A stretch of 64,000 bases of DNA from Mariannaea sp. PMI_226. Its lineage: Eukaryota; Ascomycota; Sordariomycetes; Hypocreales; Nectriaceae. Positions within the stretch are counted from its first letter, which is position 1. The number at the start of each line of letters is the position of its first letter. This document shows, piece after piece, positions 30,350-33,214 of this stretch. The notes under the pieces were generated by a model that saw only the letters and a program-made list of their open reading frames with translations, had not been told where the DNA came from and made no database searches. The stretch lies in assembly GCA_024336345.1 (NCBI GenBank), contig JANFOG010000007.1, forward strand, positions 992,001 through 1,056,000. Direction: 5' to 3'. The position numbers were made by a program, and so were the translations under genes.

Positions 30350-33214
30350 ATGGCCAGAACCAAGCAAACAGCGCGCAAGATCCGTCGCGCTCCCGCTCCC
30401 CCTGCGCCAACCACTCATCGCGCTCGTGACAATGACCCGACCTTCCTTGCTTTGCAAAAAGAGGCAGAACGCTATGAACGTATTCTAGCCGATCGTCGGC
30501 GAACAGCCGCTAAATGGCGCCCCAAGATCCCTCAAGTCCGCAAGGTCAACTTTGAAAACTTCAAGAACCGCTTCCAGGACATCGACGATCCTGACTATGC
30601 TATTGAAGTCTTGATGGCTGGATCAGGAGTTCAGTCTCAGATCCGACGTGAGCAGGGCTGCCGTCGGCGAGAGGAGCTTGCCCGTATTCGCCAGAGCTAT
30701 CTCAACCTGCGAGACAACACTCTCGCTCGCCAAAGAAAGCCTACCGTCTATGAGAAGACAAAAAGAGAGAAGAGAGGCGAGATTCTAGGGTCTTCTGATA
30801 CTGAGATCCAGCGCATTCGTATCCAGTCACAGCCTGTCCTTGGACATTTGACGTCGTTGCTCAATGACGTGGACCAGAGGTCAACACCTCGCACCTTTGT
30901 CAAACCTTTCAAGGCCTTGGTCTACTTCCAACCCAAAATGAAAGAGATTCTAGCAACACTGGAGGAGAAGTGGTCTGATGTCGAGGAGTTCAGTAGTGAT
31001 GAGCCAGAGATTATCGAGGAAGTGGGAAGTGATGTACCCAGCGTGGAGGAGAACAAAAGGGACTCCGGAACGTCAGATGATGACGACGACACTGAGTCCA
31101 TCCAATCGGTCGATTCAAATGCCGACGAAGACTTCGACAGTCTCATGGATAGCCCTGAAGCCCTGAGAGACATGCGATGTTATGTCAACTTTATCGATGA
31201 GGAGGTCATGCCTCTGTACAGCCGATTTGACGGCAGCGACGCCGACAAAGTCAAGTTCGACGACCTTTGGTCCCTCTTCCGCGTCGGTGACCTCATCTAT
31301 ATGCCTGCGTCAGGTGAAGTTGGCGGGAGATACCACGAAGTCTGGCGTATTTATCGGGTGAAAGCCCCTGAGCCACAGGCAGCGTACCCCGCGGCTGGCT
31401 GGGAATTCTTTGCCGACGAGCTGCAGCAGCCTGAAGACTCTGCATTCAAAATCTCGGCTTACTATATTGACCATGACGGCACATCCTTCGGTGCAGTGCG
31501 ACGCAGGTTTGAGATCGAGGCCTTTGTTGGCGAGAGGCAGATCAACTCTCTAGAAGTGTTCCCAATCCGATATCAGCCTGACCATGAGAAACTGCTTGGA
31601 TCGCTTAAAGACCAGGGTCGCAATTTCAACAAGTATCTGGAGGACCGACATCAGCAATACAGCGCTTGGACACTGACTCGAAATCCTCCGTCCTTACGGA
31701 CTGCTCCTGAAAATGAGATATTGGACAACCAGGACTACGAAAAGATGCGTCATCCTGAGTTTGTCGAGAGCGACGTCATGGTTGACCTGACAGAGGCATA
31801 CCAAAAGATGCCGGATTGGCGCCCCAGATTCCATGAGTTGCCAGTCAACAAATCCATGAGATGCGAGGTCGAGGACGACGACATGCCCATCCAGCATTGG
31901 TTCAATGGTACTCGCCAGTCCCTCGCATACTCTCAGAGAGAGATTGTTCAAAAGGCCGATGGTGTCGAGATCCGCCAACGCCGCGAGAATCTGAACGTAG
32001 ACTCGTTCCTACGTAACCGTGTGAATGGGAATCGTACCTTCGAAACCAACCCTAATGCGTTGGACCTTCGCGACGAGGACCTTGTCTTACTTCCCAAGAG
32101 AATGTTTGCGTATGCGTTGAGAGAACGACGCTTCTTGCCTATCGACCTGAATCTCCTCAAACCCGTGCGCCGGGAGCCGGGAGTATTTGAGAACCTCAGG
32201 ATTCAGAACGACTACAAGGATGTTGTTCGCGGTCTGGTCATGTCGCATTTCCAGAAGAAGGTCCTTGAGCGTCGCTATGCAGACGCCTCTGCAGAAGGGC
32301 CGTCGCAGGATCTGATCCAGGGCAAAGGTCGCGGTTTGGTTGTCCTACTTCACGGCGTTCCCGGTGTTGGAAAGACAGCAACGGCCGAGGCTGTGGCCAT
32401 GGAGAACAAGAAGCCTCTCTTTGTCATCACCTGTGGTGATCTCGGCTTGACACCGCACGAGGTCGAGTCGTCACTCAAGAATGTCTTCCGGCTGGCGCAT
32501 CTCTGGGATTGCGTGTTGTTGTTGGACGAGGCTGATGTGTTCCTCTCCCAGCGTTCCAAGTTCGACATGAAGCGGAATGCCCTCGTGTCCGTGTTCCTGA
32601 GAGTGTTGGAGTACTACAACGGTCTGCTGTTCCTTACAACGAATCGAGTTGGCACCATCGACGAGGCTTTCAAGTCGCGTATTCACTTGTCGCTGTACTA
32701 CGTAAGTAAAATTTTCATTTGCTATTTCCATTGCAGTAGTTCGCAATATGTCGTATTTGGTTCAAGAAGCTTACTAGTTATGTAGCCACCCCTGGATAAG
32801 ACGCAGACACGGGACATCTTCCGCCTCAACATCGTGAAACTCAAGGAGATTGAGGCTGAACGACATAGGATGACGGGCGAGCCAGCCCTCGTCATCAAGG
32901 AAGCTGAGATTCTCAACTTCGCCACCAAACACTACGAAGAGCTTGCTCGATCTACAGGGTGCTGGAACGGGCGACAGATCCGAAGTGCCTTCCAGATCGC
33001 GTCAAGCCTCGCTTTGCACAACTACACCAAGTCAGCTGACTCAGCCCGGAGTCGAGGACAGCTGCCGCCTGCAGCACCGGTTCTGGATCATACTCTGTTC
33101 GAAAAGGTGCAGATGTCGACGCAGAGCTTCGATAAGCACATGAAGAAGGAGGCAGGTAACTTTGACACGGAGCTGCCGCTCCGAGGGACTTTTCATCAAG
33201 AGCGTTACGAGTAG
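30350..33214 (+). CDS. AAA+ ATPase (DUF7025-type) with histone H3-identical N-terminus
   Basis: Two exons (30350-32701, 32786-33214) give 926 residues. The N-terminus [10 protein letters not shown] is identical to histone H3 through K9 (mature numbering); residue 11 on is unlike H3 (IRRAPAPPAP). Next come a basic, partly coiled region (31-145) with the NLS-like cluster RQRKPTVYEKTKREKRGE (127-144) and an acidic tract (about 205-270, with DDDDD at 243-247). About 300-410 matches the beta-rich DUF7025 domain of fungal AAA proteins (LWSLFRVGDLIY; ISAYYIDHDGTSFGAV; FEIEAFVGERQINSL). The AAA core has Walker A GVPGVGKT (669-676), Walker B LLLDEAD (Asp726, Glu727), sensor-1 TTN (763-765), an SR finger (776-777) and the lid NGRQIRSAFQIA. 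It should be an active ATPase. The family function is unknown; a nuclear, chromatin-linked role is inferred from the N-terminal half. Confidence 0.92.

Follow-up and report, generated by a model that had tools for sequence, protein, structure and literature searches.

A putative histone H3 N-terminal mimic on a fungal AAA+ ATPase of Mariannaea sp. PMI_226

Non-histone partners and mimics of the histone H3 tail take several forms: the PHD finger of UHRF1 binds the ARTK start of H3 and the VRTK of the PAF15 N-terminus (PMC8034647), an N-terminal H3-like motif of Sgo1 interacts with the BIR domain of Survivin (PMC10987093), and the H3 tail enters the chamber of Yta7 (PMC9898759). The gene described here lies in a stretch of 64,000 nucleotides (the window) from Mariannaea sp. 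PMI_226, positions 992,001 to 1,056,000 of the forward strand of contig JANFOG010000007.1 (GCA_024336345.1), and encodes an AAA+ ATPase whose initiator methionine is followed by exactly residues 1–9 of H3. This start is tentatively read, at somewhat less than an even chance, as a maintained mimic of the H3 N-terminus, centred on A1-R2-T3-K4, that docks the ATPase to a reader of the H3 tail. Endogenous H3 N-terminal mimics are already known; no H3 mimic on a fungal AAA+ or SNF2 ATPase was found in the titles and abstract openings searched, and within that literature such a mimic would be new. The ten-residue H3-start string returned no title about such a protein among those covered, a literature search for a histone mimic in filamentous fungi found nothing, and a search by the name DUF7025, the family of this ATPase, found no paper.

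The H3-like start and its occurrence in the genome

The element in question is the following.

30350 to 30379, forward strand: initiator methionine and histone H3 residues 1–9, by translation and codon comparison

Translated, these ten codons form the N-terminus of a non-histone protein of 926 residues, encoded by two exons (30350–32701 and 32786–33214) and 100% identical to a public protein of the same length (P0001, BGZ63DRAFT_425063). Position 30350 is the first possible AUG, since an in-frame TAG stands at 30287 with no in-frame ATG in between, and the orthologue alignment has the same start point. Four short ATGs were also observed upstream (window positions 30080–30119, within 300 bases before the start), which could open upstream reading frames should transcription start ahead of them. 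The protein is a fungal DUF7025/AAA_lid_13 AAA+ ATPase, and no histone family or histone fold was found among its Pfam matches at E ≤ 0.001. The initial annotation had claimed the exact H3 start with its methionine, a AAA+ ATPase of this length, a remainder unrelated to H3 and isoleucine instead of serine at residue 10; gene structure, the public protein, Pfam and the translation agree with it on these points.

When all six frames of the 42.2-Mb genome were scanned with degenerate codon patterns, simple repeats and very common words being skipped, ARTKQTAR was detected at three places, each directly behind an ATG, with no match of the reversed-pattern control: the H3 gene (C5:48307), the ATPase gene, and a gene for a SNF2/RING ATPase (C22:231494). 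By our own arithmetic, about 0.02 such matches are expected by chance in the genome at equal base frequencies. The ten-codon pattern (Met and H3 1–9) and the pattern MARTK...RK were each found in the H3 and ATPase genes only, M.RTK.TAR and MART..TAR returned the same three places as ARTKQTAR, and KAPRKQL was found in H3 only. The pattern KQTARK matched two further places, neither directly behind an ATG (control matches, two forward and two reverse), and M.R.K.TAR matched one more, C14:21672, where the frame ends after 13 residues (controls, two forward and one reverse). At C1:792921 (L047), a 104-residue open frame contains an internal KQTARKST (H3 4–11). The six paralogous AAA loci (L029–L034), searched as three-frame translations of the gene strand, contained no RTKQT, KQTAR or APRKQ, and ARTK occurred in them twice, out of context.

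A fourth place was found with the pattern MARTKQ, on the reverse strand at C12:1797262 (L041), where the start MARTKQPAVRRE matches H3 1–9 at six of nine residues; the frame behind MARTKQPAVRREVSS is a UAA-family nucleotide-sugar transporter, in which mimicry of H3 would be unexpected. This counts against docking: an ARTKQ start alone is no proof of mimicry, so that the weight falls on the longer matches, and the confidence in docking, as well as in the wider address tag considered below, was lowered. It also speaks for coincidence among many basic N-termini, noticed through the fame of H3, as do the M-A-R starts common in the orthologue tails and the scanning of many windows, which invites striking matches. 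Coincidence is nevertheless hardly credible in view of the three genome places all at an ATG, the orthologue permutation and shuffling tests below, and the separate matches to H3 13–20; the earlier claim that the match is unlikely to be chance holds on the three places and the empty control.

Over the nine codons, the ATPase differs from the H3 gene of the same genome at seven nucleotides and no amino acid, and the probability of such silent-only divergence is about 1.3e-4 if it were neutral after a copy (transitions weighted 2). A recent copy of H3 DNA is disfavoured, as the initial annotation had argued from codons unlike those of an H3 gene, because six of the nine codons differ, all silently. 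The tail might still derive from a captured first coding exon of H3, or be a plain basic arm, and now be without specific H3 function (a drifting relic, nuclear import or nucleic-acid binding), which is unlikely though worth weighing: the H3 reading frame of the genome runs for 27 residues and then stops, fitting a nearby intron, different orthologues retain different parts of H3 1–20, and the transporter gene also starts with MARTKQ. The silent-only difference of the nine codons is at odds with this, as are positions 2–6, which evolve more slowly than positions 11–25, and the SNF2/RING gene, which has the same eight residues with silent differences only and no clear H3 match beyond.

Conservation of the start among orthologues

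In the orthologue search, the 7,987 candidates with the most words in common were scored; 196 proteins resulted, and the best 120 of them were used. Those with names are presumably all Sordariomycetes. Among these 120, the start is ARTK in 27, ARTKQ in 19, ARTKQTAR in five and ARTKQTARK in three, and 19 match H3 1–9 at seven or more residues; several Trichoderma rows, none of them T. reesei, begin with MARTKQTTRK. A recognisable tail was present in 98 rows (22 were dropped, including the window's own), with a mean identity to H3 1–9 of 4.2 of 9, compared with 0.94 for permuted tails, and p ≤ 0.01 in 53 of the 98. When 99 rows were compared with shuffled nonamers, at least seven matches were observed in 16 rows and at least eight in 10, while 3,000 shuffles gave at most 8 and 1. 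A separate N-terminal search, scored on residues 1–62, gave 51 matches from 107 candidates, all of them DUF7025 proteins. A consensus was drawn from 21 chosen orthologues, a choice that favoured H3-like rows. Removal of the initiator methionine is expected before alanine and other small second residues, and of 112 rows, 108 have a residue 2 that permits it: A in 89, G in 11, T in 4, and V and S in 2 each.

Differential rates were also observed along the start when 112 rows were placed on a fixed tree, with Met numbered 1, so that A1 of H3 is position 2. The rates are 0.70 at A1 and 0.82 at R2, 1.75, 1.66 and 1.75 at T3, K4 and Q5, 4.4 and 4.5 at T6 and A7, and 1.75 and 2.44 at R8 and K9, with a body median of 0.20; positions 11–25 lie at the ceiling of 4.52, a rate overstated by their ungapped comparison. 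Positions 2–6 and 9–10 are slower than 11–25 and positions 7–8 are not, and the start is thus constrained relative to the tail that follows, most at A1-R2. The proposal in the initial annotation that residues 1–10 are kept while the next ones drift therefore stood for positions 2–6 and 9–10 and failed for 7–8, and its preference for K4-type over K9-type recognition is favoured by the slow A1 and R2, and less by T3-K4-Q5, and tempered by R8 and K9, whose rates likewise lie below that of the free tail. The distribution of the rows with at least seven matches (19 of 112) is explained by 13 changes on the tree, while each of 200 shuffles needed at least 14 and the average was 17.7, indicating that the H3-like start is partly inherited.

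Several of these results weigh against a maintained mimic. The motif is not present throughout the orthologues but patchily kept, with three or fewer matches in 37 of the 98 rows, mostly from Xylariaceae and Daldinia; the rows are related, so that the permutation and shuffle counts are not independent trials; the rates of T6 and A7 are close to that of the free tail, which is itself overstated; and the partly inherited start has undergone many losses or repeated gains. Roughly three quarters of the body sites are slower even than A1 and R2, so that the start still counts as one of the quickly evolving regions of the protein. Among the longest H3 matches described below, four (P0002, P0115, P0117 and P0242) are metagenome proteins. 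The histone mimic of the initial annotation is accordingly carried by the orthologue constraint and by the permutation and shuffle tests, and weakened by the patchiness.

The same tails bear on whether the arm is a substrate, modified like H3 by Set1/COMPASS, a K9 methyltransferase, haspin or acetyltransferases, which would switch the ATPase with chromatin state or cell cycle. The 27 ARTK starts among the best 120 and the intermediate rate shared by T3 and K4 suit such a role, but H3 matches among the 98 rows amount to 55% at T3, 56% at K4 and 22% at K9, and Fusarium starts include MARTSQ and MARTAQ, which leaves it improbable. In the manner of haspin and Survivin, the arm might instead be read like H3T3 or the Sgo1 N-terminus by a BIR domain within the chromosomal passenger complex, which would link the ATPase to centromeres in mitosis. 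Such a role would fit the order in which A1 and R2 are kept best and T3-K4 next, as well as the interaction of the H3-like Sgo1 motif with the Survivin BIR domain (PMC10987093). T3 is replaced in 45% of the 98 rows and no pointer to mitosis was found in this analysis, and this role is rated very improbable.

Matches to H3 beyond residue 10 were assessed by comparing the residues after the tenth with H3 10–27 in 97 rows, where p ≤ 0.005 was obtained in three rows against 0.5 expected, with a modest excess at p ≤ 0.05 (10 against 4.9). The three are P0115 with GRAPRKQL and P0117 with GKAPRKQL, the latter being H3 13–20 exactly (p = 0.001 each, the least possible), and P0004 with GGKAARK (p = 0.002); APRKQL (H3 15–20) is present in three orthologues, P0115–P0117, and P0002 and P0242 start with eleven H3 residues, including S10-T11, although the search that found P0242 is biased towards similar N-termini. 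Unlike the metagenome proteins, P0004 and P0116 are named. The two orthologues with S10-T11, the three with APRKQL and a second protein with a near-identical start go beyond the initial annotation.

Two further observations concern the family. P0009, recorded as Diplogelasinospora grovesii, has an H3-like ten-residue start and is placed among Hypocreales in the tree, possibly through contamination or horizontal transfer. Three Xylaria/hypoxyloid AAA relatives have histone H4-like starts, P0067 (MTGRGRGKKG), P0043 (MTGRGNGRRG) and P0042 (MTGRVKRGSK), matching H4 at 7, 6 and 5 of 9 residues (p = 5e-5, 5e-5 and 5.5e-4 against permuted tails), a comparison made with rows picked after they had been seen. 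Such starts would agree with a less strict preference for basic tails resembling those of histones, and to that extent they too speak against a specific mimic of H3.

A second ATPase gene and the docking model

At C22:231494, on the reverse strand (L035), the ARTKQTAR frame is joined through a 56-base intron to a SNF2/RING/helicase chain. The exact H3 match stops at residue 8, with no clear match beyond, and over these eight codons there are eight nucleotide differences from the H3 gene, none of which alters an amino acid. The public model of the gene (P0121, 1328 residues) begins downstream, without the H3-like exon; the H3-like start is probably real, because an orthologue (P0122) continues alike across that region. 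SNF2 domain, RING and helicase C lie in one chain in the orthologues P0122, P0124, P0127 and P0129 and in the precomputed Pfam matches of P0121, and the gene is presumably SHPRH/Irc20-like. Its family is unrelated to the DUF7025 AAA+ family. Among the best 120 of 4,530 relatives, 79 of 121 rows were scorable (the Mariannaea gene included), with a mean of 3.6 of 9, where permuted tails average 1.0, and p ≤ 0.01 in 36 of 79. Several relatives have H3-like starts, such as MARTKMTARR, and five of 45 distinct starts reach 7/9, a level equalled or exceeded by 2 of about 5,000 shuffled nonamers; the full ARTKQTAR was found in none of the best 120 and occurs only in the Mariannaea gene itself.

As far as sequence comparison reaches, mimicry of H3 is supported by evolution, through the constraint among orthologues, the extended H3 matches in a few of them, and the second ATPase gene with ARTKQTAR. 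Docking is favoured because a small free residue, R2 and T3-K4-Q5 form the pattern used by readers of the H3 tip. Once the methionine is removed, A1-R2-T3-K4-Q5-T6-A7-R8-K9 would be exposed on a putatively disordered arm, followed by a conserved helix. A domain that ordinarily recognises the start of H3, such as a PHD finger, may bind this arm as its ligand. Docking would then tether the ATPase, presumably nuclear, to a chromatin complex, and if rings form as in classic AAA proteins, several arms could be displayed at once.

A wider idea, possible but doubtful, is that the free H3 N-terminus represents a portable address tag in Sordariomycetes: two unrelated ATPases display ARTKQTAR, the same readers would recruit or regulate both, and lineages may sample K9-S10-T11, APRKQL around K18, and perhaps H4-like starts. 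If docking by mimicry is true, the cell's own motors bear the H3 recognition code in two unrelated families, which would offer a natural test of the ligand needs of H3-tail readers and a handle on the DUF7025 AAA+ family; H3K4 antibodies and reader probes may also pick up non-histone proteins in these fungi.

Architecture of the ATPase and comparison with known systems

The remaining features of the gene, all on the forward strand, are as follows.

30380 to 30436: rest of the variable basic tail, residues 11–29, not H3-like here (alignment, site rates, model)
30437 to 30517: conserved helix, residues 30–56, AERxERILADRRR (alignment, predicted model)
30971 to 31135: acidic low-complexity stretch, residues 208–262, with predicted local distance difference test (pLDDT) values below 50 at 213–257 (sequence, model)
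31238 to 31579: DUF7025 (PF22942), residues 297–410 (Pfam)
32342 to 32698: AAA domain (PF00004), residues 665–783 (Pfam, alignment)
32354 to 32377: Walker A, GVPGVGKT (sequence, alignment)
32513 to 32536: Walker B, VLLLDEAD (sequence, alignment)
32702 to 32785: single intron, GT...AG (sequence; agrees with public protein P0001)
32792 to 33151: AAA_lid_13 (PF23232), residues 787–906, with a lid-like match of the model (Pfam, model)

The Pfam matches exceed the curated cut-offs in bits for PF22942 (82.5 against 27), PF00004 (66.1 against 21.2) and PF23232 (33.5 against 27), and an AAA_16 match fell below threshold. GVPGVGKT and LLLDEAD are intact and invariant or nearly so across the alignments. 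By sequence, the AAA part belongs to the classic type, its best solved relatives being NVL, VCP-like ATPase, Msp1 and Rix7. The predicted model suggests a weak likeness of DUF7025 to SH3-like barrels. The ATPase lies between genes for a flavin monooxygenase (27518–29062, forward strand) and a sugar transporter (34226–35281, reverse strand), and no chromatin family was found among the ten frames of the window that were scanned. A HET-domain protein with ankyrin repeats is also encoded in the window (7641–11351, reverse strand).

With an H3-like tail, an acidic stretch and an AAA module in one chain, the arm might act as a pseudosubstrate, the AAA pore handling H3 tails and the protein's own H3-like tail competing for the pore or the acidic stretch, and the reported case of Yta7 with an H3 1–24 peptide provides a precedent (PMC9898759). 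The density in Yta7 was, however, fitted to H3 10–24, not 1–9 (PMC9898759), and the Mariannaea ATPase is not of the ATAD2/Yta7 kind, having one AAA module and no bromodomain (Pfam, E ≤ 0.001), which makes this quite unlikely. In the predicted model, residues 1–26 have pLDDT below 50 and the AAA part is poor.

Docking by mimicry, the preferred reading, can be set beside the described systems. Sgo1 is likewise a non-histone protein with an N-terminal H3-like motif, which in Sgo1 is a docking ligand; unlike the Mariannaea protein, Sgo1 is not an ATPase. Its likeness to H3 is presumably limited to a few residues. The viral and EZHIP-type histone mimics, which are viral proteins or use other motifs, interact with H3 enzymes or readers through stretches that resemble H3, whereas here the stretch lies at the free N-terminus of the cell's own ATPase. 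PAF15, a mammalian PCNA-interacting factor with a reported role in DNA methylation maintenance, is like the ATPase a non-histone protein with an H3-like extreme N-terminus, VRTK, of shorter identity (PMC8034647). ATAD2, Abo1 and Yta7 resemble the Mariannaea protein as chromatin AAA+ ATPases (PMC9898759; Abo1, PMC6917787), but they bind H3, whereas the Mariannaea ATPase carries an H3-like tail, and Yta7 has two AAA modules and a bromodomain. Within the same genome, the SNF2/RING gene has nearly the same start in an unrelated family.

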